Source: Bacillota bacterium
GTDB lineage: Bacteria; Bacillota; DTU025; MWDF01
Reading direction: 5' to 3'
DNA length: 34,552 bases
Assembly: GCA_029565935.1 (NCBI GenBank)
Contig: JAKQNF010000035.1
Coordinates: forward strand, 1-34,552
This document shows positions 10,228 through 24,689 of the stretch, in pieces. A program made the translations under genes and the position numbers. The notes under the pieces were generated by a model. That model was not told the DNA's origin. It saw only the letters and a program-made list of their open reading frames with translations, and did not search any database. Each line of letters opens with the position of its first letter. Position 1 is the first letter of the stretch.

Positions 10228-10788
10228 GTGCCTGGCAGTGCATGGGGAAGGTTCATATCGCGTTTTGGCGTCTACGATCTCGTGGTCATAGGGCTCATAG
10301 CGGCACTTGGCATCGCGGCGAAGAACGTCGTGGGCCCGCTGGCGCACCTCGTGACGGTGCCTCTTGGAATACCAGGAGGCGCACTGGCAGGCGGCTTCTA
10401 CATGCTGTGGCTGGTCCTTGCCAGGGCCTATACGGGGAAGATCGGATCATCGTCGCTCGCGGCGCTGATCCAGGCAGTCATAGTGCTGGCCACGGGGTCT
10501 TTCGGATCCCACGGAGCGTTAACATTGGCCACATACACGCTGCCCGGCCTGGCATGCGACGTTGCGATGCTCTTCTACAGGAAGGACCGGGAAGGCAAGC
10601 TGCTCTGGTGTACGCTCGGTGGAATGGCGGCGAACATGACCGGCTCCGTGGCGTCGAACGTAGCGTTCTTCAGGCTGCCGGCGCTGGCACTGGCCCTTAT
10701 GGCTACGACGGCCGCCTTTTCCGGGGCGGCGGGAGGTGCCTTTGCGAGTGGTGTGGCGGATAAGTTAGGCAAGCTGACAGGAAGATGA
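10228..10788 (+). CDS. ECF transporter S component, specificity unknown
   Basis: This is a 186-residue integral membrane protein with five to six hydrophobic helices. It has the S-component pattern of a Gly/Ala-rich hydrophobic core (LIAALGIAAKNVVGPLAHLV, GALAGGFYMLWLVLARAYTG, SHGALTLATYTLPGLACDV) and a small-residue helix usable for docking to EcfT. S components bind one vitamin or cofactor precursor and hand it to the EcfA-A'-T motor encoded three genes downstream. It does not look like the well-known BioY, ThiT, RibU or FolT signatures. The start is GTG directly after the nadE stop, with GGAGG inside nadE as ribosome site. Candidates from context are a pterin/molybdopterin-type compound (exported molybdopterin-fold protein and MobB-like gene) or niacin (nadE). 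Confidence 0.7.
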   Translation: MPGSAWGRFISRFGVYDLVVIGLIAALGIAAKNVVGPLAHLVTVPLGIPGGALAGGFYMLWLVLARAYTGKIGSSSLAALIQAVIVLATGSFGSHGALTLATYTLPGLACDVAMLFYRKDREGKLLWCTLGGMAANMTGSVASNVAFFRLPALALALMATTAAFSGAAGGAFASGVADKLGKLTGR

Positions 10789-10801
10789 CAGGAGGTGCCC
10801 A

Positions 10802-11317
10802 ATGAAGGCCAAGGACAAGATCGCCCTTGTGACCATCGTGTTTCTTGGGCTCGCGATGGTCGCGCTCGGCGCCGTTAACTCGTGTGCTGTGGAGCAGAAG
10901 ATGGAAGGTTCGCTGGAAGTGATTGTAAACGGCGAGAGTAAAGGCATCCTGACCGCAGAGGAGCTCTCCGCGATGAAAGCGTCGACGTTCAAGGCAATCA
11001 TAAGAAGTTCCAGCGAGGGCAAGAGCGAGGCGGAGTTCACGGGCGTTTTAGTCCTGGAGATAGTGGCCAGGGTGTATCCTGCGATCAAGGACGGCTACAA
11101 GGCAATGATCGTAAAGGCGGAGGACGGCTACCAGACGGTACTGAGCAAGGAAGAAGTCGAACAGAAGGACAATGCTTACATCTGCTTCCTCATGGACGGG
11201 GCTCCCATCAAACCGAAGGTGAAGAAGGGGCAGGGCCCTCTTAGGCTCATCATAAGGAAAGACGAGTTCGGACAGCGCTGGGTGAAGTACGTTGATAGGA
11301 TAGAGGTAAAGAAATGA
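10802..11317 (+). CDS. Exported molybdopterin-binding-fold protein in ECF operon
   Basis: This 171-residue protein has an N-terminal signal helix (residues 7-25) ending in VNSC, a weak lipobox with Cys28. The mature part resembles the oxidoreductase molybdopterin-binding (sulfite-oxidase-type) fold: a FTGVLVLEIVARV segment where the family has 'GVPLxxLL', KAEDGYQTVLSKEEV where it has 'DGYxxxF', a DGAPIKP turn, and GPLRLIIRKDEFGQRWVKYVDRIEV, the family's closing motif. The Mo-ligating Cys of true enzymes is absent, so a binding rather than catalytic role is inferred. It lies between the S component and EcfA and overlaps EcfA by four bases (ATGA). The ribosome site ACAGGAGGTG is strong. It could be an extracytoplasmic ligand-capture partner of the ECF transporter. 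Confidence 0.7.
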   Translation: MKAKDKIALVTIVFLGLAMVALGAVNSCAVEQKMEGSLEVIVNGESKGILTAEELSAMKASTFKAIIRSSSEGKSEAEFTGVLVLEIVARVYPAIKDGYKAMIVKAEDGYQTVLSKEEVEQKDNAYICFLMDGAPIKPKVKKGQGPLRLIIRKDEFGQRWVKYVDRIEVKK

Positions 11318-12003
11318 GCGTGCTGGTCCTATCCGGCATCAAGTTCGCCTACTCGGGATCGAATAGAAAAGTACTTGACGGCGTGGACCTTTCGATCGAG
11401 AAGGGCGAGGCCGTCTTGATATCTGGCCCCTCCGGAGGAGGGAAGACGACCCTTTGCCTCGTGGCGGCTACGATCATACCCACGAGGGTACAAGGCGACT
11501 TCTCCGGGATGGCCGAGCTCATGGGGCAGGGCACGAGGAAGCTGGGCCCTTCGGGGGCCTCAGAGTACGTAGGATACGTCATGCAGGAACCCGAGTTCTC
11601 GATGATCATGCCTACGGTGGAGGACGAGATAGCGTTCGGCCTTGAGAACAGGGGCCGGGAGCCGGCCGAGGTCGCCGTTGCCGTAGAGGGCGTAATGACG
11701 CGCTTGGGCATGGAAGGACTCGCTGGCAGGGACCCAAGGAGGCTTTCCTCCGGCGAGAAGCAGCTCGTCGCGATGGCTTCGGCCGTAGTGCACAAACCAC
11801 AGCTGGTTATCCTTGACGAGGCACTTTCGGGGCTGGACGACGACAAGAGGGCACTCGCCCTGGCAGAGCTGGACGCGATGAGACAAGGCGGCGCTGCGCT
11901 CCTGATAGCCGAGCATGCGGGAACCGGAAGGCAGGCCCCCTTCCTGTCGGCAAGAAGATATGTCCTGCAGGACGGAAGGCTCGCGGAGGAGGTGTCCGGA
12001 TGA
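11314..12003 (+). CDS. ECF transporter ATPase A1
   Basis: This 229-residue ABC ATPase belongs to the energy-coupling module. Walker A is GPSGGGKTT (residues 38-46), the Q-loop is Q91 in VMQEPEF, the signature is LSSGEKQ (144-150), Walker B is LVILDEALSGLDD (D168/E169 pair) and the switch His is H201. The family LSGGQ is changed to LSSGE, as it is in part in the partner ATPase. The protein starts four bases inside the preceding gene and overlaps the second ATPase by four bases, so the operon is translationally coupled. It hydrolyses ATP on the cytoplasmic face to drive EcfT and the S component. Confidence 0.93.
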   Translation: MSVLVLSGIKFAYSGSNRKVLDGVDLSIEKGEAVLISGPSGGGKTTLCLVAATIIPTRVQGDFSGMAELMGQGTRKLGPSGASEYVGYVMQEPEFSMIMPTVEDEIAFGLENRGREPAEVAVAVEGVMTRLGMEGLAGRDPRRLSSGEKQLVAMASAVVHKPQLVILDEALSGLDDDKRALALAELDAMRQGGAALLIAEHAGTGRQAPFLSARRYVLQDGRLAEEVSG

Positions 12004-12677
12004 GGGCGGTATCGTTCGAGTCCGTCGGCTTCTCTTATCCAGGCAGTCGCCAGGACAAGTCGTCAAAGCAGGTCTTCGAAGGACTTACTCTCACCCTTGT
12101 GCCCGGGAAGGTCTACGTCATGTCGGGGCCGAACGGATGTGGCAAGAGCACTTTCGCCAAGCTCATGACGGGCATGCTGAAGCCGGATTCGGGCAGGATC
12201 CTGATCGGGGAGAACGATATGGTATGGATGGGGCTTTCGGACATAGGGAAGCACGTCGGACTGGTGATGCAGAATCCCTCCAGACAGCTCATCATGCAAA
12301 AGCCCGTCGACGAGATCGCCTTTGGCCTAATCCACAGGGGGATGCAAAAGGATGAGGCGGCGAATGTGGCCAAGGCCGCCCTGAGGGACTACAAGCTTAC
12401 GGAAATCGCTGACACCCCGACGCAGAAGCTGTCGAAAGGAGAGCAGGTAAGGCTGGCGATGGCTTCGGTGGCTGTGCTGGAACCGGACTGGCTCCTGCTA
12501 GATGAGTCGCTGTCCTGCCTGGACGGCGCATCGAGGAGCAAGGTTCTGGACAAGGTGGCCAGGCTGGTAAGGCACGGGGGCGGCGCCTTGATAATCTCGC
12601 ATTCTAAGGATTTGGCATACGAGCTTGGCGCTATAAGGATCCTGATCGAGAGGGGAGGGGTCAGCGTTGTGGTCTGA
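12000..12677 (+). CDS. ECF transporter ATPase A2
   Basis: This 225-residue second ABC ATPase pairs with the preceding one. Walker A is GPNGCGKST (residues 43-51), the Q-loop is Q91 in VMQNPSRQ, the signature is LSKGEQV (144-150), Walker B is WLLLDESLSCLD (D168/E169) and the switch is SHSKD. The NPSRQLIM stretch after the Q-loop resembles the ECF-specific Q-helix region that pushes on EcfT. The gene overlaps both neighbours. Two different ATPases plus one EcfT is the standard group I/II ECF layout. Confidence 0.92.
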   Translation: MRAVSFESVGFSYPGSRQDKSSKQVFEGLTLTLVPGKVYVMSGPNGCGKSTFAKLMTGMLKPDSGRILIGENDMVWMGLSDIGKHVGLVMQNPSRQLIMQKPVDEIAFGLIHRGMQKDEAANVAKAALRDYKLTEIADTPTQKLSKGEQVRLAMASVAVLEPDWLLLDESLSCLDGASRSKVLDKVARLVRHGGGALIISHSKDLAYELGAIRILIERGGVSVVV

Positions 12678-13395
12678 CATGGACCCGAGGTCCAAGATAT
12701 TCGCGACGCTATGCCTTACGTCCATGGCCCTTCTCGTGAGGATGCCCTTGGCCGCGCTGCTTCTGGCAGCGCTTACGGCAGCGGCGCTCATAGCCTTCGG
12801 CATTGATCCGAAAGGTCCTCTCAAGACCCTTATAAGGCTCGCTCCTGCGATGCTCGTGGTGGCCGTGCTGCAGGTACTGCTCGTAAGGAGCGGACGTACG
12901 GTCCTTTCTGCCTTCGGGATCGGGATCGTCACGACGGGGGGCCTAGGCGCTGCAGCCTTCATGGTGGTGAGGGTCGGGATCATAGCCGCGTGCGGCTATA
13001 TCTTGTCCGGCATAGGTTTCGCCGACTTCCTCCTTGCTATGAAGTCGATGAAGGTGCCCTATGAGATAGCGTTCATGGCGGCCATGGGAGCGAAATTCCT
13101 CCCTCTTCTGGCGGAGGAGATGACGGACAGTCTTACTTCGGCTGAGCTCAGGGGCGCCGACATAAAACGGATGGGGATAATCAGAAGGCTTAGGCTCTAC
13201 TCAGAGGTTCTGATGCCGGCGACGTTCACCGCGCTGTCTAGGGCGGAGGGCATTTCGTGGGCGCTCGAGCTCAGAGGTTTCAACCCGGGCGCCGGCAGGA
13301 CATACTGGAGGAAACTGGAAATGAGGATGTCCGACTGGATGGCATTCCCGCTGGGCATCATCGCGTTCGCGGCGTTCTTGCTAGCCAATTACTGA
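12667..13395 (+). CDS. ecfT: ECF transporter transmembrane component EcfT
   Basis: This 242-residue inner-membrane protein joins the ATPases to S components. It opens with DMDPRSKIFATLCLTSMALL, a family-typical 'xxDPRxKL' start, and has about five transmembrane helices. Two Arg-containing coupling motifs are visible, TSAELRGADIKR and ALELRGFNPGAGR, matching the two A-R-G motifs that dock onto EcfA and EcfA'. The likely start is TTG at 12667, preceded by GGGGAGGGG; ATG at 12679 is an alternative. It overlaps the ATPase gene. Confidence 0.9.
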   Translation: MWSDMDPRSKIFATLCLTSMALLVRMPLAALLLAALTAAALIAFGIDPKGPLKTLIRLAPAMLVVAVLQVLLVRSGRTVLSAFGIGIVTTGGLGAAAFMVVRVGIIAACGYILSGIGFADFLLAMKSMKVPYEIAFMAAMGAKFLPLLAEEMTDSLTSAELRGADIKRMGIIRRLRLYSEVLMPATFTALSRAEGISWALELRGFNPGAGRTYWRKLEMRMSDWMAFPLGIIAFAAFLLANY

Positions 13396-13408
13396 TCTTG
13401 GAGGAACG

Positions 13409-13921
13409 ATGAAAGTCTTTGCCGTTTCCGGCCTCCACGGCACCGGAAAGACCACGGTAGTGGAGCAGCTGGTGGGTGAACTGGTCCGAAGGGGCCTGAA
13501 TGTGGCTACAGTGAAGGACATACACTACGAAGGGTTCACCATGGACAAGCAAGGCACGAACACATGGAGGCACAGGGCGGCGGGAGCATGTGCCGTAGCG
13601 GCGCGCGGCCTTGCCGAGACGGATTTCGTCTACGGCGTCAGGATGACGATGGAAGAGGTGGTTTCTCGGCTCGAGGCTGACGTCGTCGTGATCGAAGGTG
13701 CGCACGACGAGCCCTATCCGAGGATCACCTGCGCAACATCGCCCGAGGAGGCGGACATGAGGAGGGATTCCTTCACATTCGCGATATCAGGAAGGATATC
13801 CGACACAACCTCCGAGCATGACGGACTCAGGGTGTACGACTGCGCCAAAGAGGCAACGGAACTGGCGGACCTGGCCCTTGAGAAGGCGCTGGAGGTCGGA
13901 CCCGGAGCGAGCAGAAGATGA
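13409..13921 (+). CDS. MobB-like P-loop GTPase
   Basis: This 170-residue protein has the P-loop GLHGTGKTT (residues 8-16) and the MobB pattern that follows: a helix ending RRGLNVATVKDIHYEGF, then DKQGTNTWRHRAAGA, which aligns with the 'DxPGKDSxRHRxAGA' block of molybdopterin-guanine-dinucleotide biosynthesis protein B. The later VVVIEGAHDEPYPRI matches the MobB 'EGFKxxPxPKI' region. MobB assists MobA in attaching GMP to molybdopterin. No MobA is next to it. GGAGG precedes the ATG, and its last four bases overlap the kinase-like gene. Placed in the ECF operon, it suggests that the imported or captured compound is linked to molybdopterin; a different nucleotide-dependent role remains possible. 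Confidence 0.75.
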   Translation: MKVFAVSGLHGTGKTTVVEQLVGELVRRGLNVATVKDIHYEGFTMDKQGTNTWRHRAAGACAVAARGLAETDFVYGVRMTMEEVVSRLEADVVVIEGAHDEPYPRITCATSPEEADMRRDSFTFAISGRISDTTSEHDGLRVYDCAKEATELADLALEKALEVGPGASRR

Positions 13922-14763
13922 CGGACCGGAACAAGACAAGCGAGAAGAAGCAAGGGCTCGCAGGCCAGGCCGCCAGACAGTGTGCTCTCGCCATACGCGA
14001 AGGCATCGAGATGGAAGTGGCGATGGGTTCCCTGCCCGGCTTCGTTGGCCTCATCCAGCTGGAATCGAGCAAGGGACTCTGCTACAAGCTCGATCTTTCC
14101 GGCGTAGGTCCTCTTTTCGTTAAGGTCCTGGAGGATGAGGGCAAGGCGGAGAACGAAGCGTCGTTATCGTCAAGGCTTGCAGGATTGGGCATAGGCTGTC
14201 CGGTGCCGTTGGCCGTGGAAGGCCGGGTGCTCGTAAGGGATTACCTGGGGGCCGCCACCGCCGCCGAAGAGCTTGATCTGGCTTTGAAGTGGGGCGATGT
14301 GGCCTCGGCCTCGAGATTGTGCAAGAGAGTGGCGGAGCTGCTGGCAGATATCCATATGGTGGATTCAAGTTGCGGGCACGGGATGGTCGTGAACGACCTG
14401 AACCTCAAAAACTTCCTTGTATCTTCTAACTGCAGCCTGTCCATCATCGACCTTGCGGAAGCAGGATACGGCGACCAGCCCAAGGACCTCGGGGCGCTGA
14501 TGGTCCACATCCTCACGCACAGGCCGGAGTTCACCGACATCTCGGCAGCGATGGCGGACTCTGCCCTGGATTCGTATTTCACCAAGGCAGGAAAGCTGTG
14601 GGACGTCACGGAAGCGTCGGCGGGCCTTGAAGAGGCGCTCGCTGATGCGTCCATCAGGAGGGCTAGGCCGGAACTTCCCGGGCTCGCGTCATGGTACGTG
14701 TCACATCTGAAAGAGCGGGCGGAAGCAACTACGAGGAGGTCACATCATGGAGCTGAAGACTAG
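13918..14763 (+). CDS. Protein-kinase-fold small-molecule kinase-like protein
   Basis: This 281-residue protein has a two-lobe kinase outline. The Lys of the N lobe is K69 in GPLFVKVLEDE, with a Glu in the following helix (ENEASL). The hinge is RVLVRDYLGA. The catalytic loop is MVVNDLNLKNFLV, with Asp160 and Asn165 placed as in H-x-D-x-x-x-x-N, but the usual His is replaced by Val. The metal Asp is D178 in IIDLAEAG, followed by KDLGALMVHIL as in aminoglycoside phosphotransferase/Rio/Bud32-like enzymes. It may phosphorylate the compound taken up by the ECF transporter, trapping it inside; this is inference. It overlaps MobB-like (4 bases) and bioY (17 bases). Confidence 0.6.
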   Translation: MTDRNKTSEKKQGLAGQAARQCALAIREGIEMEVAMGSLPGFVGLIQLESSKGLCYKLDLSGVGPLFVKVLEDEGKAENEASLSSRLAGLGIGCPVPLAVEGRVLVRDYLGAATAAEELDLALKWGDVASASRLCKRVAELLADIHMVDSSCGHGMVVNDLNLKNFLVSSNCSLSIIDLAEAGYGDQPKDLGALMVHILTHRPEFTDISAAMADSALDSYFTKAGKLWDVTEASAGLEEALADASIRRARPELPGLASWYVSHLKERAEATTRRSHHGAED

Positions 14764-15304
14764 GACGCTGACGATAGTGGCGCTCTTCACGGCGCTTATG
14801 ATAGCTGGAGCCTACATATCGATACCGATCGCCGACCTGGTGCCGTTGACCTTCCAGCCATTCGTGAGCATACTCGCAGGGTCGATTATAGGCCCGAGGC
14901 TGGGCTTCCTGGCGGTCTTCTCGTATGTCGTGATAGGACTCGCCGGAGTCCCCGTGTTCTCGGGGTTCACCGGAGGCTTCGCAAAGGTGCTCTCCCCCTC
15001 TTTCGGCTTCATCCTGGGTTTCCTGGCGGCGGCCCTCGTGACGGGCATGGTCACCGGGAAGGACAGGCCAACCTTCGCAAGGGTGTTGGCGGCCGACATG
15101 GCAGGCATATTCGCGATATATCTAATCGGGGTCCCCTACATGCATTTCATCCTGAGGGCGGTATCGGGCAAGGACTGGACGTTTTGGGCCACAACCATCG
15201 GCATGGTCCCGTTCCTGGTGAAGGATTTGGCCCTTGCGGCCATCGCCTCTACGATAGCGGTGAGGCTGATACCTGTGGCCAGGAAGGCTACCAGGATGCA
15301 ATGA
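14747..15304 (+). CDS. bioY: BioY biotin transporter S component
   Basis: This 185-residue membrane protein has six helices. Family motifs are visible: ISIPIADLVPLTFQPFVSILAGSIIGPRLGFLAVFSYVVIGLAGVPVFSGFTGGFAKVLSPSFGFILGFLAA is here as consecutive segments, with the diagnostic 'P(L/V)T-x-Q' and 'G-x-P-V-F-S/A' turns, and a late LIGVPYMHFIL. BioY binds biotin and works alone or with an ECF motor. It is the last gene of the nadE-ECF operon and overlaps the kinase-like gene, so it may share the EcfA-A'-T motor with the first S component. Confidence 0.92.
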   Translation: MELKTRTLTIVALFTALMIAGAYISIPIADLVPLTFQPFVSILAGSIIGPRLGFLAVFSYVVIGLAGVPVFSGFTGGFAKVLSPSFGFILGFLAAALVTGMVTGKDRPTFARVLAADMAGIFAIYLIGVPYMHFILRAVSGKDWTFWATTIGMVPFLVKDLALAAIASTIAVRLIPVARKATRMQ

Positions 15305-15351: not shown

Positions 15352-16611
15352 TTAGAATCCCAGCGCCTGTATCATCCTGAGGAAGAACTCCGTATTGTCG
15401 TACCATCCGGAAAAGCAGGCCCCTGCCGGGCCCTCGGCTGTTATGATCACCATAGATGCGGTGTGGGAGCCGCTGCCCCACGAGACGTTGGAAGCATATG
15501 ATATGAGCCTGCCTATCTCCTTTGCAGGGTCGGCCGAGACGCGCACTCTGGCCGCGTCCTCGTCGTCGAGCTCGTAATTCGCATACGTCTTGAGTATCTC
15601 CTTGAGCCTTTTCCAGTCGGAAGCCGCCTCAGCTGCCATCCTCCCGGCGCTGGCGCGCACTTTTAGCAATTTCGAAACATCCACGTTAAGGCCGTTGCCA
15701 GCCCCGAGGGAAAGGCCGCCCGTCTCGTGGTCCGCCGCTACGACCACCAACGTATTCCCGTCCGCTTGGGCGAACGATAGGCAGGCCTTTACCGCATCAT
15801 CGGCGGCAAGCAGGCCCTTGATGACGCTGGCGGCGTCATTATCGTGCGATGAGTCGTCCACCGAACCCGTCTCCACCAACAGCAAGAAGGGCCTCCCGTC
15901 CTTTGAGAGCATGGCAAGCGCCGTCTCGACCATGTCCTTCAGCTTCACTGCCTTCGCATCAGAATCGATCTCCTGGGGCATGTCGCCTTCGGCAAGCAGG
16001 CAGACGGCGGGCAGGGTCCCCTCCGAGAGCGCCTTGATGTCGGAATATGAGTTGAAGGCCGGCTTTGCCTTAGATGAAGCCGCCGATTCCTTGATCAGGG
16101 GGCCGATGTATGCTCCGCCGCCGCCAACCGCCAGCGCGAGCGGCGATGCCAGCAGCTGCTTCGATATGTTCTTATTTTCGGATCGCATAAGCACGTTAGC
16201 GTACATAGCGGCCGACGTGGCGTCATACAGGGCGGATGTCGTAACGATTCCGGCGGACATACCGCTTTTTACGGCCAGGGACATGATGCTCTCCGTCCTG
16301 TCCAGCTCGTAGTCGTATCCGATCACCATGTTATAAGTCTTGCGGCCAGTGAACATGGCCGTAGCCGCCGCGGCGGAATCCGTGATGTCGAGCCCGTAGC
16401 TGGAAGTGCTCATGCATCCCAGGTAGGGCATGTGGTTCATGGCTAGCCCGCCCTTCTGTGCCAGCTCGCCGAGCTGCCTGTGCGCGGGCCCCATGCCATC
16501 CACCAGGACTACGACCAGATTCCGCGCTGTCTCGGCCCCGCCAAGGGCCCAGAAGCCCATCACCGCTACTAGCAATATGGCCAAGGATGACCTTAAAGCC
16601 CACTTACGCAT
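15352..16611 (-). CDS. phoA: Exported alkaline phosphatase (PhoA superfamily)
   Basis: This 419-residue secreted enzyme removes phosphate from monoesters. After a Sec signal (residues 8-27), the fold opens NLVVVLVDGMG with metal Asp38. The nucleophile motif is D78-S79-A-A-A-A-T-A-M-F-T-G. The metal sites are ETGSVDDSSHDND (E247, D252, H256), AADHETGG (D294, H295), and the late GSGSHTASMV His. Where E. coli PhoA has Arg166 at the phosphate, this shorter Firmicutes-like form has no obvious equivalent. AAAGGAGG lies 6 bases upstream of the ATG. It is divergent from the deacylase gene. Confidence 0.9.
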   Translation of the reverse strand: MRKWALRSSLAILLVAVMGFWALGGAETARNLVVVLVDGMGPAHRQLGELAQKGGLAMNHMPYLGCMSTSSYGLDITDSAAAATAMFTGRKTYNMVIGYDYELDRTESIMSLAVKSGMSAGIVTTSALYDATSAAMYANVLMRSENKNISKQLLASPLALAVGGGGAYIGPLIKESAASSKAKPAFNSYSDIKALSEGTLPAVCLLAEGDMPQEIDSDAKAVKLKDMVETALAMLSKDGRPFLLLVETGSVDDSSHDNDAASVIKGLLAADDAVKACLSFAQADGNTLVVVAADHETGGLSLGAGNGLNVDVSKLLKVRASAGRMAAEAASDWKRLKEILKTYANYELDDEDAARVRVSADPAKEIGRLISYASNVSWGSGSHTASMVIITAEGPAGACFSGWYDNTEFFLRMIQALGF

Positions 16612-21118: not shown

Positions 21119-21450
21119 ATGATCTCCGTCCTTTCGTATGGGATAAAAAGTAATTCGGTGAATATAAAGGGATTCCTCCGAAGAATGACTGTTAAAGCAT
21201 GTGATATTTTTGACCGTCCAGTTCTGATAGAAGCATCGCCTTCAAGCTACTAAAAGAGCTCGAAAAGGCCGGCTTATCCTCTAGGTCTTGGCATTGACCG
21301 ACAGATGAACCGTAAATCGTTCGCTCCGCGCGTTTTCAATCGGCCTATATGCTGGGCATCTATTCCAGTTGGGGGATGATGTGTTATAGTGTACACAATC
21401 GCCGAGCTGTAGCCGGCATATCGGGACGTACATCAGATGATCGTGAATCA
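21119..21450. other. Divergent upstream region between ggt and ECF S gene
   Basis: This stretch has no supportable gene. It must contain the promoters for ggt (minus) and for the S-component leader (plus). A TATAGT at about 21385 could be the -10 box of the latter, but the -35 is poor. Confidence 0.4.
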
Positions 21451-21500
21451 TACCATGAAGGTATAGCCTCTCGAACGAGGGCGCCCTCATGGTTTTTTTA
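21395..21500 (+). promoter_or_regulatory. Attenuator-type leader upstream of second ECF S component
   Basis: A terminator stem ACCATGAAGG / CCCTCATGGT (arms at 21452-21461 and about 21484-21493, one mismatch) contains an inner CCTC/GAGG helix and runs into T7 (21493-21499), 15 bases before the S gene. An alternative hairpin ATACC-ATGAA-GGTAT (21450-21464) uses the same left arm and would block the terminator. Upstream lies a small ATGAT/ATCAT hairpin. This switchable layout is typical of a riboswitch or other attenuation, but I do not recognise an aptamer class. Confidence 0.55.
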
Positions 21501-21513
21501 TGGAGGAGACAGA

Positions 21514-22041
21514 ATGCGGACCAGAAGAATCGTCCTGGCAGCCATGTTCATCGCGCTAGGGATGCTGCTGCCCTTCCTTACAGGTCAGATACCAGGCATC
21601 GGGAGCAGGTTGCTGCCGATGCACCTGCCCGTGCTCATCTGCGGTTTCGTCTGCGGCTGGAAGTACGGGCTGGCGGTAGGTTTCATCCTTCCCATATTCA
21701 GGAGCTTCACGTTCGGCATGCCGCCGTTCCCTACGACTGCGGTACCGATGGCATTCGAGCTTGCCGCGTACGGGATGATGACGGGCTTGCTCTATTCTCT
21801 GCTTCCGAAGAAGACCGGTTCCATATACATCGCGCTGCTGTCTTCGATGTTGGCAGGAAGGGCGGTATGGGGCGCGGTAAGGTTCATTATGCTACTTGCC
21901 GGCACGAAGTTCTCGTGGGCGCTGTTCATCTCCGGGGCGTTCATCAATGCAGTCCCGGGCATGATCCTCCAGGTAATCCTCGTGCCGCTGGTCGTAATCG
22001 CCCTTCAGAAGGCCAGGTTCGCTGCAGAAGAACGTAGATGA
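21514..22041 (+). CDS. ECF transporter S component (second)
   Basis: This 175-residue membrane protein has about five to six helices. Its signature run includes RLLPMHLPVLICGFVCGWKYG, FRSFTFGMPPFPTTAVPMAFELAAYGM and AGRAVWGAVRF. This pattern is familiar from unassigned Firmicutes ECF S components; I cannot name the ligand. GGAGGAG lies 6 bases upstream of ATG. It stands alone behind a leader with an attenuator, so expression probably responds to the level of its ligand. It would use the EcfA-A'-T motor encoded 8 kb away or another one elsewhere. Confidence 0.75.
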   Translation: MRTRRIVLAAMFIALGMLLPFLTGQIPGIGSRLLPMHLPVLICGFVCGWKYGLAVGFILPIFRSFTFGMPPFPTTAVPMAFELAAYGMMTGLLYSLLPKKTGSIYIALLSSMLAGRAVWGAVRFIMLLAGTKFSWALFISGAFINAVPGMILQVILVPLVVIALQKARFAAEERR

Positions 22042-22824: not shown

Positions 22825-22853
22825 TTGTATAAAGGCCGGCCCGAAGGTATCAT
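22825..22853 (+). promoter_or_regulatory. Candidate promoter for riboswitch operon
   Basis: TTGTAT (22825-22830) and TATCAT (22848-22853, five of six consensus bases) have a 17-base spacer. A transcript starting near 22860 would begin just ahead of the structured leader. The rest of 22583-22824 shows no recognised feature. Confidence 0.45.
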
Positions 22854-22865
22854 CTAATTATATGA

Positions 22866-22963
22866 CCGCGCTCCGAGCCGGGAGACCTAACGCTTGGCCA
22901 TGGATTCCCGGCCGTCAGGGCCGGGGCGGAAACGCTCCGACCTCCCTTTTGGAAAGGATGCGG
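22866..22963 (+). ncRNA. Candidate Moco/Tuco-type riboswitch
   Basis: The folded leader has: P1 CCGC (22866-22869)/GCGG (22960-22963), with TCC/GGA stacked inside; P2 GCCGGGA (22877-22883)/TCCCGGC (22906-22912); inside P2, CCTAA (22886-22890) facing ATGG (22900-22903), close to the 11-nt GAAA-tetraloop receptor (CCUAAG...UAUGG); and a 6-bp hairpin GGGGCG-GAAA-CGCTCC (22923-22938) whose GAAA loop would dock there. CCTCCC...GGAAAGGATGCGG closes the 3' side. The Moco RNA motif is described as having such a tetraloop-receptor pair and purine-rich conserved 3' block, and genes it controls are molybdenum or tungsten cofactor genes; here the next genes have molybdopterin-binding folds. A covariance-model match is not available to me. 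The region where a P3 stem would be is short, which could point to the tungsten form. Confidence 0.6.
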
Positions 22964-22979
22964 CTGGCTTCGCTTTGTA

Positions 22980-23013
22980 TGCCGTGCCTTCCTTCGGGGC
23001 ACGGCACTTTTTT
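22980..23013 (+). terminator. Riboswitch-linked intrinsic terminator
   Basis: A perfect 9-bp stem TGCCGTGCC / GGCACGGCA with a 9-base loop runs into TTTTTT. It sits between the aptamer-like leader and the ribosome site (GGGAGG) of the next gene, so it is likely the expression platform. Confidence 0.9.
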
Positions 23014-23029
23014 ATCGGGAGGTTTCCAG

Positions 23030-23995
23030 ATGCGCATCGCGAACAGAATTAAGTTGCTTGCCGCACTGTTCATCTTAGTGTCGGTGTCGATGGCAGCGTT
23101 CGCCACAGAAGCATCGGCCGACAAGCTGACGATAAGGCTGACCGACAGGATGGGAACGTCACAGACGGTCGATGTGCTGTCGCTGCCTCAACTCAGGTAC
23201 GAGGCTTCCTACAAGCGCTCATCGGGGACCATAGTCGGACCGTTCACCTACGAAGGCCCCTCGCTCCTTTCCGTGCTGGCACTGATGGGCGGGATGAACG
23301 ATGGCGATGCGGTGCAGCTGATCTCGGACGACGGCTATCGTATGAGCCTGACCTACGAGCAGATAAACGGGGAGGTCGCCGTCTATGACGAAGCGGGCCA
23401 GGCGCTCGAAGAGTACGAAAGGCCTGTCATGATGCTCGCAGTATCGTCAGACAACCCGGCTTTCGCGCAAGGCAACATAAGGGCGATCTACGCGGGACCG
23501 AAAGTACCGCTTACCGACGGTCATACCTGGGTCAAGGGCGTAATAGAGATAAAGGTCGTTCCCATGGTCAAAGAATGGGCGCTGAAGCTGACCGGCGCCG
23601 TAGAGGCCAGGATGGACAGGTCAACGTTCGAAAGCTTGGCTACGTGCCCCCTGTCTCCGCATCCTGGGTCCGAATGGAAGACGGAGGATGCGATCTATGC
23701 CGGAGTGCCGTTATGGGCGCTGGTCTCCGTAGTGGACAACATAGAACCCGCCGATTCCCATTACACGTTCGACAAGCAGCTCGCCAGGGCGGGCTATACC
23801 GTAAGGGTCATATCGGCTGACGGCACGTTCGTCGATTTCGACTCCAAGGACCTGATCTACGAATCGGACATATTCATAGCCTTTACCAAGGACAAGGTGC
23901 TGCTGGGAGACGCTGACGGACCGCTCATGCTGGCAGGAGCGAAGTCCCCGAAGGTATTGAAGCACATAGTCGCGATAGAGCTGATAGGTCTTTAA
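23030..23995 (+). CDS. Exported protein with two molybdopterin-binding-fold domains
   Basis: This 321-residue protein has a Sec signal (1-30). Domain 1 is about residues 32-178 and has the sulfite-oxidase-type fold: SGTIVGPFTYEGPSLLSVLAL where the family has 'GVPLxxLL', SDDGYRMSLTYEQI ('DGY' strand) and TDGHTWVKGVIEIKVV (closing 'WVKGV..IEV'). Domain 2, about 183-321, repeats it: AIYAGVPLWALVSVV, ISADGTFVDFDSKDL, DGPLMLAG and VLKHIVAIELIG. The only Cys is C206 at the start of domain 2, not at the Mo-ligating position of true enzymes; domain 1 has no Cys. A binding rather than redox role is inferred. Start: GGGAGG then ATG. It is the first gene behind the Moco-like leader and is followed by a microprotein and a third paralogue. 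Confidence 0.7.
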   Translation: MRIANRIKLLAALFILVSVSMAAFATEASADKLTIRLTDRMGTSQTVDVLSLPQLRYEASYKRSSGTIVGPFTYEGPSLLSVLALMGGMNDGDAVQLISDDGYRMSLTYEQINGEVAVYDEAGQALEEYERPVMMLAVSSDNPAFAQGNIRAIYAGPKVPLTDGHTWVKGVIEIKVVPMVKEWALKLTGAVEARMDRSTFESLATCPLSPHPGSEWKTEDAIYAGVPLWALVSVVDNIEPADSHYTFDKQLARAGYTVRVISADGTFVDFDSKDLIYESDIFIAFTKDKVLLGDADGPLMLAGAKSPKVLKHIVAIELIGL

Positions 23996-24016
23996 TGATT
24001 TAGGAGGTCCATGTTA

Positions 24017-24160
24017 ATGACAGCATTCAAAGCTGCAGCTTTCGCTGCGATCCTGGCTCTCATGGTCACGGCATCCAAGGCGTTTGTAGGATGCTTCTCG
24101 GTGATAATCAGGCATATGGCGGCCATAGAGCGCATATTAAGTTCAATGGGAGGTTCGTAA
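24017..24160 (+). CDS. Small membrane protein (47 residues)
   Basis: A short frame is preceded by TAGGAGG at nine bases from ATG 24017 (an in-frame ATG at 24011 is too close to it). It encodes one hydrophobic helix (FKAAAFAAILALMVTASKAFVGCFSV) and a short basic/amphipathic tail ending in SMGGS. Its stop is one base before the ATG of the next gene, and that gene's ribosome site (GGGAGG) is inside this frame, so the two are translationally coupled. No known family is recognised. It could be a membrane partner of the two exported molybdopterin-fold proteins that flank it. Confidence 0.55.
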   Translation: MTAFKAAAFAAILALMVTASKAFVGCFSVIIRHMAAIERILSSMGGS

Positions 24161-24161
24161 G

Positions 24162-24689
24162 ATGGCACGGAGAATAATCGCAGCGTCCTTGGTTATACTG
24201 GCCCTTATCTTGTCGGTCACGGCCGCGATGGCGGCGGGTCCGTCCTTGAAGCTCATAAAAAGCGACGCTGCCGTGGTCGTGGAGCTGGACAAGCAGGCTC
24301 AGACTGAAGGCGTGGCCTATTACAAGAACTCCAAGGGAGTGGTCTCCGGTCCTTTCAAGATCAAGGGCGTGAAGCTGGCCGACCTGATAAACTTGGCGGG
24401 GGGCATGAGCGCCTCGGAAAAGCTCGTAATGGTATCGTCGGACGGCTACGTGACGGAGCTCGACTACGGCAAGCTCAACGGCGAGATGGCGGCGACCAGG
24501 CCGGACGGTTCTCCCGTAGAGGGCAAGCCCGTCATGGTCCCGGTCCTCATCACCTGGTCGGATCCCGGGATGGAGAAGGACCTGCCGAGGCTGGGCTTCC
24601 TGTCCTTTGTGGAGGGCGGGCTGATCACGGAGAGCAAGTACTGGGCGAGGAACGTCGTCGAGATAAAGATTGTGCCCGCAGGCGAATAA
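24162..24689 (+). CDS. Exported single-domain molybdopterin-binding-fold protein
   Basis: This 175-residue protein has a Sec signal (1-25, cleavage near AMAAG). The mature part matches one molybdopterin-binding-fold domain: GVVSGPFKIKGVKLADLINLAGGM, VSSDGYVTELDYGKLNGE, DGSPVEGKPVMVPV and YWARNVVEIKIVPAG at the end. It contains no Cys at all, so Cys-coordinated molybdenum is impossible; the long GFLSFVEGG stretch before the end is an insert compared with compact domains. It is a paralogue of domain 1 of the preceding large protein and of the ECF-operon protein. It probably forms the end of the riboswitch operon, although no strong terminator is seen. Confidence 0.72.
   Translation: MARRIIAASLVILALILSVTAAMAAGPSLKLIKSDAAVVVELDKQAQTEGVAYYKNSKGVVSGPFKIKGVKLADLINLAGGMSASEKLVMVSSDGYVTELDYGKLNGEMAATRPDGSPVEGKPVMVPVLITWSDPGMEKDLPRLGFLSFVEGGLITESKYWARNVVEIKIVPAGE

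Follow-up and report, generated by a model that had tools for sequence, protein, structure and literature searches.

A contig of a Bacillota bacterium (JAKQNF010000035.1 of assembly GCA_029565935.1; 34,552 nucleotides [nt], referred to here as the window) carries a riboswitch of the class linked to the molybdenum cofactor (Moco) and the tungsten cofactor (Tuco) in front of the genes for two exported proteins with the sulfite oxidase (SUOX) fold, P0001 and P0002. Comparison of sequences across genomes indicates that this riboswitch-controlled pair is probably part of a system for the capture and import of Moco, Tuco, or molybdopterin, in which cargo and transport are the presumptive elements. 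The wider claim, that bacteria possess here an uptake system for the intact cofactor or for molybdopterin that would let auxotrophic anaerobes live on the cofactor of their neighbors, is favored by a modest lean. The same lean applies to its proposed composition of SUOX-fold receptors, trimming by phosphoesterases, a dedicated energy-coupling factor (ECF) importer, and regulation by the cofactor's own riboswitch.

The Riboswitch and Its Expression Platform

A cmscan search of the whole window finds the leader matching the Rfam family RF01055 over its full length, with 65 bits compared to a gathering score of 36 bits, and a genome-wide search with the Rfam model shows it to be the single copy in the 1.80-Mb source genome. 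A separate covariance model, built from 19 other leaders with the window's copy excluded from training, also recovers the leader and finds no second match in 1.44 Mb of the source genome. The related leaders show double changes in 21 of 29 base pairs, including 4/6 pairs in P1, 7/8 in P2, and 7/10 in P4. Paired cells make up 92.5% in these leaders, compared to 71.8% in shuffles and 40 to 49% with slid partners, and none of 500 shuffles reached the observed level of covariation. The score, the covariation, and the conserved gene context led to the rejection of a chance match. The original prediction, made from the letters of this DNA alone, had named a Moco/Tuco-like riboswitch with a CCTAA/ATGG tetraloop receptor, a GAAA-capped hairpin, a GGAAAGG purine block, and a strong terminator. 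Direct reading of the sequence places every one of these elements where it had been described, with the purine block at 22951-22957, and both the covariance model score and the compensatory changes bear out the riboswitch call.

A feature that had gone unmentioned is the absence of P3, which is replaced by 4 nt in the Rfam alignment. P3-lacking Moco RNAs correlate with the tungsten cofactor according to Regulski et al. 2008 (PMC2408646), and through its missing P3, the window RNA falls into the Tuco-type class with the strength of that correlation. The sequence identifies the leader as a true Moco/Tuco riboswitch in the P3-lacking form, with Moco or Tuco as the presumed ligand. The RNA shares with other RF01055 members the aptamer architecture, the GAAA tetraloop and its receptor, the purine-rich 3' strand, and the terminator platform. 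It differs in its target: RF01055 members are known to control cofactor synthesis, oxyanion transport, and enzymes that use the cofactor, whereas the window RNA precedes SUOX-fold proteins that belong to an ECF system and are predicted to be nonenzymatic. Tandem copies of the riboswitch with a spacing of about 50-120 nt are found in four other loci (L260, L279, L305, and L314).

In computed folding, transcripts of up to 118 nt form the aptamer with P1 in place. The full leader favors an antiterminator, with −68.9 kcal/mol compared to −64.7 kcal/mol for P1 plus terminator; in this structure, GGAAAGG and the 3' strand of P1 pair with the 5' arm of the terminator. Because a terminator lies downstream and an antiterminator competes with it, cofactor binding is predicted to switch expression off, which would fit a cofactor-supply gene.

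SUOX-Fold Proteins

P0001 and P0002 both contain N-terminal export signals and are similar to each other (E 1.3e-15). Scans of the single sequences against Pfam and NCBIfam assigned no family to either protein, and P0001 alone as a query against the genome contigs retrieved nothing, but fold and profile searches succeeded. Foldseek matches the AlphaFold2 model of P0001 to PruR, sulfite dehydrogenase (2blf), and YedY (1xdy). A profile of P0002 and related single-domain proteins matches PruR (7kom; E 2.8e-9) and sulfite dehydrogenase (E 2.9e-6), and relatives of P0001 match PF00174 above the cutoff. On the evidence of these models and profiles, the SUOX molybdopterin fold is right for both proteins; together with the export signals, this agrees with the original prediction of two exported proteins of this fold, and the searches led to no different fold.

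The PF00174 matches of the relatives, together with their naming by NCBI as molybdopterin-dependent oxidoreductases, would suit cofactor-using redox enzymes of the sulfite oxidase type under the control of the cofactor they use, a suggestion made by Regulski et al. for Syntrophomonas wolfei. In contrast, 276 SUOX domains from related loci show no conserved Cys at the position of the molybdenum or tungsten ligand, and Cys is rare in their core columns. The nearest solved structures of the P0002-type single-domain profile are those of the PruR pterin-binding proteins, ECF S components and phosphoesterases are fusion partners or neighbors of the SUOX domains, and secreted SUOX domains occur in genomes unable to make the cofactor. 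Redox enzymes are therefore considered quite improbable, and P0001 and P0002 were rejected as enzymes for want of the Mo-ligating Cys. With the sulfite oxidase/YedY family (PF00174), they share the fold but not this residue, and oxidoreductase activity is not expected.

PruR is a pterin binder of the SUOX fold that lacks the Mo-ligating Cys and holds the pterin through the Tyr of an N/D-x-Y motif and a Trp (PMC13259868). The 276 SUOX domains contain a D-G-Y motif (conserved in 100, 87, and 88%, respectively) and a C-terminal Trp (79%), and alignment to 7kom puts the NDY of PruR opposite this DGY. Since the Mo-ligating Cys is absent and the PruR-like Tyr and Trp are kept, P0001, P0002, and their relatives look like pterin binders more than oxidoreductases. 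The PruR proteins of Agrobacterium, Vibrio, and Klebsiella (7kos, 7kom, and 7rkb) have in common with them the exported SUOX fold, the missing Cys, the N/D-x-Y Tyr, and the C-terminal Trp. PruR differs in acting with DcpA in cyclic di-GMP signaling and in its small-pterin pocket, whereas the window proteins have ECF transporter partners, a cofactor riboswitch, and repeated or fused domains. The common fold and Tyr/Trp positions would also allow the SUOX-fold proteins to act as sensors of pterins outside the cell, the role of PruR toward DcpA, with uptake as a separate matter. This is very unlikely: the partners that recur throughout are ECF components, and in seven loci a SUOX domain is fused to the S component itself; no operon with a DcpA/DTB-type regulator was found around the window proteins, whose neighbors are ECF components, nor was a DcpA-type partner noticed in the related operons, although no search with a DcpA model was made.

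Cys206 of P0001 is invariant within a TCPxTPHPG motif in the second SUOX domain of P0001-like proteins and is missing from the single-domain forms. A 1106-amino-acid (aa) exported protein with several SUOX domains is encoded downstream of the riboswitch in L042 (8327-11647, minus strand), a locus of genome G015. The small open reading frame (ORF) between P0001 and P0002 is probably not a conserved part of the locus: in L238, a locus from the same genus, the orthologs of the two proteins lie 16 nt apart, and the ORF is absent.

The ECF Transporter and Its Conserved Link to the Riboswitch

The window contains an ECF operon (10228-13921), mostly 9-12 kb upstream of the riboswitch, in which the S component, two ATPases, and the T component stand in a single operon (10228-13395), the layout of group I ECF transporters. 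The model of the S component resembles YkoE most closely, followed by other vitamin S components (Foldseek). Homologues from the same order and from other families unite the parts in one riboswitch-headed operon with SUOX proteins, the PF09819 S component, a double ATPase, EcfT, and a SUOX-phosphoesterase fusion.

To test the link independently, alignment of the S component alone was used to retrieve 80 loci from named genomes. They come mostly from Clostridia and also from Dehalococcoidia, Cloacimonetes, Actinomycetota, and Halanaerobiales. Scanning them with the riboswitch model gives 64 matches, of which 63 in 55 loci remain after the removal of one weak match (20.7 bits); even the densest genome observed (18 copies per 4 Mb) would predict about 6. 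All but one of the 63 copies (62/63) lie on the strand of the S component. The 64 loci with complete downstream sequence encode EcfT in 61 cases, SUOX proteins in 57, MobB in 47, and a secreted PF01663 phosphodiesterase in 34. L238 shows the split arrangement of the window, with the orthologs of P0001 and P0002 (the latter P0004) directly after the riboswitch, and in G009 and the single-contig genome G095, a lone riboswitch heads the entire SUOX-ECF-MobB operon.

These results support and extend the original prediction of cofactor-controlled, secreted nonenzymes in an unusual regulon. Its nonenzymatic part is supported by the missing Mo-ligating Cys, but the reading was incomplete in overlooking the wider ECF system. 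The regulon is not an isolated curiosity; it forms part of an ECF-transporter system that is conserved. The link had been partly reported before: Regulski et al. described, as exceptions, two RNAs of the P3-lacking form in S. wolfei that lie upstream of genes labeled 'putative sulphite oxidase' (PMC2408646).

The YkoEDC transporter, a group I ECF transporter for thiamine (5edl; PMC5037267), shares with these operons the fold of the S component and the dedicated S, A, A', and T components in one operon. In contrast to YkoEDC, the ECF-SUOX operons feature a Moco instead of a thiamine pyrophosphate (TPP) riboswitch, SUOX partners or fusions, MobB, and secreted phosphoesterases. Regulation by TPP was rejected, since the TPP element is absent from these operons and the RF01055-type RNA is present.

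Cofactor Users without Cofactor Synthesis

None of the three genomes of the genus, that of the window included, contains MoaA, MoaC, or MoeA (completeness 98, 89, and 77%). A local phmmer check with Escherichia coli and relatives' proteins, covering 1.777 Mb of the 1.800 Mb of this genome, agrees with their absence and likewise reveals no ModA, TupA-like protein, MoaB, MoaD, MoaE, or Mog; a MobA-like match (32.6 bits) and MoeB/ThiF-like matches are candidates only. The genome nevertheless encodes two full tungstopterin aldehyde oxidoreductases (AORs). The same three synthesis genes are absent, and AOR is present, in the unrelated genome G009 and in G095. An artifact of the hidden Markov models or of assembly was rejected, as the three genes are gone from three genomes of the genus and from a single-contig genome; relatives of the same order are positive.

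Of 50 genomes without MoaA, 13 have AOR and 37 do not; the S component is found in 9/13 of the former and in 0/37 of the latter (Fisher p 2.9e-7). Counted by family, the proportions are 5/8 and 0/23 (p 3.3e-4). The S component also occurs in 6 of the first 30 MoaA-positive genomes, which indicates that the ECF-SUOX system is useful to cofactor producers too.

Two other cargoes have to be weighed against the cofactor. The system might import the tungstate or molybdate oxyanion, the SUOX-fold proteins then being accessory binders of an unusual kind. Moco RNAs are known upstream of molybdate and tungstate transporters (PMC2408646), P3-lacking RNAs stand directly before genes for TupA-like solute-binding proteins in two loci (L279:973-2136 and L270:1854-3034), and PF09819 bears the Pfam title 'ABC-type cobalt transport.' Oxyanion import is nonetheless improbable: the genus, G009, and G095 have no MoaA, MoaC, or MoeA, without which the metal alone is useless; the fold of the S component is that of vitamin S components, among them the thiamine binder YkoE; and SUOX domains and phosphoesterases suit a phosphorylated pterin, not an oxyanion. 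Equally doubtful is another pterin or vitamin, such as thiamine, a folate-type pterin, or a flavin, with the riboswitch reflecting coregulation instead of the identity of the cargo. Thiamine is the ligand of YkoE (PMC5037267), the pterins bound by PruR are small, and some operons contain FMN_bind and ApbE genes. However, the operons are headed by the Moco RNA and not by a TPP, flavin mononucleotide (FMN), or tetrahydrofolate (THF) riboswitch, most contain MobB, and the presence of the S component follows that of AOR enzymes among MoaA-less genomes.

Proposed Salvage Mechanism

For salvage of Moco, Tuco, or molybdopterin, a multistep mechanism is proposed. When the cofactor is scarce, the riboswitch would be on, and the two secreted, PruR-like SUOX-fold proteins would be made. 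Extracytoplasmic SUOX domains would then capture the Moco, Tuco, or molybdopterin that other cells release, and secreted phosphoesterases from two unrelated families may remove phosphate or a nucleotide from the captured molecule. The YkoE-like ECF transporter would import the trimmed cofactor, which may finally be used inside the cell by MobB and enzymes of the AOR family.

Several points weigh against this proposal. The riboswitch of the window precedes the SUOX pair only, with the ECF operon 10-12 kb away. A terminator-like hairpin follows just 25/63 of the related riboswitches, although this is an enrichment over the 11/189 random control windows, and an automatic folding test, itself weak, gives minimum-energy antiterminators in 4/20 related loci. 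Moco is reported to exceed the size of the PruR pocket (PMC13259868), and Moco binding therefore does not follow from the fold. Several genomes with the ECF-SUOX system also make the cofactor, and the system is thus not restricted to auxotrophs. Conversely, no S component was found in the MoaA-less, AOR-containing genomes G020, G073, G110, and G155, so other cofactor routes or nonfunctional AORs exist; some of the genomes are incomplete metagenome-assembled genomes.

Other Features of the Window and of Related Loci

The features of the window are listed in Table 1. The alkaline phosphatase encoded between the ECF operon and the riboswitch could, speculatively, be an accessory enzyme of salvage. 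The window contains further ECF S components, one of the family PF12822 just upstream of the riboswitch (21349-22041) and a BioY protein beside the ECF-MobB operon (14747-15304). Directly 3' of P0002 (24844-29665) follow a nitrilase-like protein and then an NMT1/SsuA-like ABC transporter with a TcdA/ThiF-like protein.

Table 1. Riboswitch elements and genes of the window (positions in nt)
Feature	Position	Strand	Basis
Moco/Tuco riboswitch aptamer (RF01055), P3 lacking	22859-22976	+	Rfam 65 bits, E 1.2e-13; own covariance model 66.3 bits
Tetraloop receptor in P2	CCTAA 22886-22890 / ATGG 22900-22903	+	Sequence and Rfam alignment
P4 hairpin, GAAA tetraloop 22929-22932	22918-22943	+	Sequence and Rfam alignment; P4 double changes in related leaders
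Intrinsic terminator hairpin, then CTTTTTT	22980-23006	+	11 pairs; 5' arm able to pair with GGAAAGG 22951-22957 as antiterminator
P0001, exported, two predicted SUOX-fold domains, 321 aa	23030-23992 (stop 23993-23995)	+	AlphaFold2 pLDDT 84; Foldseek PruR, sulfite dehydrogenase, YedY
Small hydrophobic ORF, 49 aa	24011-24160	+	Absent from L238
P0002, exported, single predicted SUOX-fold domain, 175 aa	24162-24686 (stop 24687-24689)	+	Similarity to P0001; profile match to PruR
YkoE-like ECF S component (PF09819)	10228-10788	+	AlphaFold2 pLDDT 89.5; Foldseek YkoE 5edl, TM 0.77
Membrane-anchored SUOX-fold protein of the ECF operon	10802-11317	+	PF00174 37.7 bits (cutoff 24)
ECF ATPase EcfA	11314-12003	+	PF00005 68.6 bits
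ECF ATPase EcfA'	12000-12677	+	PF00005 93.6 bits
EcfT transmembrane component, CbiQ family	12667-13395	+	PF02361 76.1 bits
MobB, molybdopterin-guanine dinucleotide biosynthesis adaptor	13409-13921	+	PF03205 83.3 bits; NCBIfam mobB 84.0 (cutoff 76.2)
Exported alkaline phosphatase	15352-16611	-	PF00245 206 bits; ortholog in the same place in L238

In other loci, the same type of riboswitch is found before different genes. It precedes genes for NAD-type aldehyde dehydrogenases (PF00171) at L293:15550-15670 and L098:13720-13836, and these enzymes could be metal-free substitutes for AOR that are turned on under cofactor shortage. FMN_bind lipoproteins and ApbE flavin transferases are the first genes after the riboswitch at L243:7764-8330, L276:193-708, L253:5286-6452, and L258:8666-9793, a possible sign of an extracytoplasmic redox step.

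Relation to Known Uptake Systems and Significance

Riboswitches are known to control the uptake of B12, thiamine, riboflavin, queuosine, and folate. A survey of riboswitch regulons from 2013 lists classes of coenzyme uptake among which a Moco transporter is missing (PMC3766115), and no description of a bacterial Moco importer or of a link between this riboswitch and an ECF transporter was found in the searchable literature, subscription literature being outside the scope. The closest logic is that of queuosine salvage in Clostridioides difficile, where a cofactor-type riboswitch, that for PreQ1, governs salvage enzymes together with an ECF S component (PMC11477304); riboswitch, S component, and cargo differ from those of the window system. 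The free cofactor is unstable, and its passage across membranes is an open question, also in Caenorhabditis elegans fed on bacteria (PMC9793310). The riboswitch of the window is itself of a known kind; the ECF-SUOX regulon and the predicted cofactor salvage are a new variation.

If the proposed system holds true, the 'sulphite oxidase' cases noted as exceptions by Regulski et al. in 2008 would be resolved, and many annotations as 'molybdopterin-dependent oxidoreductases' would have to be corrected. The persistence of tungsten enzymes in genomes without the synthesis pathway would be explained, and a bacterial importer would make the sharing of the cofactor in anaerobic communities testable.

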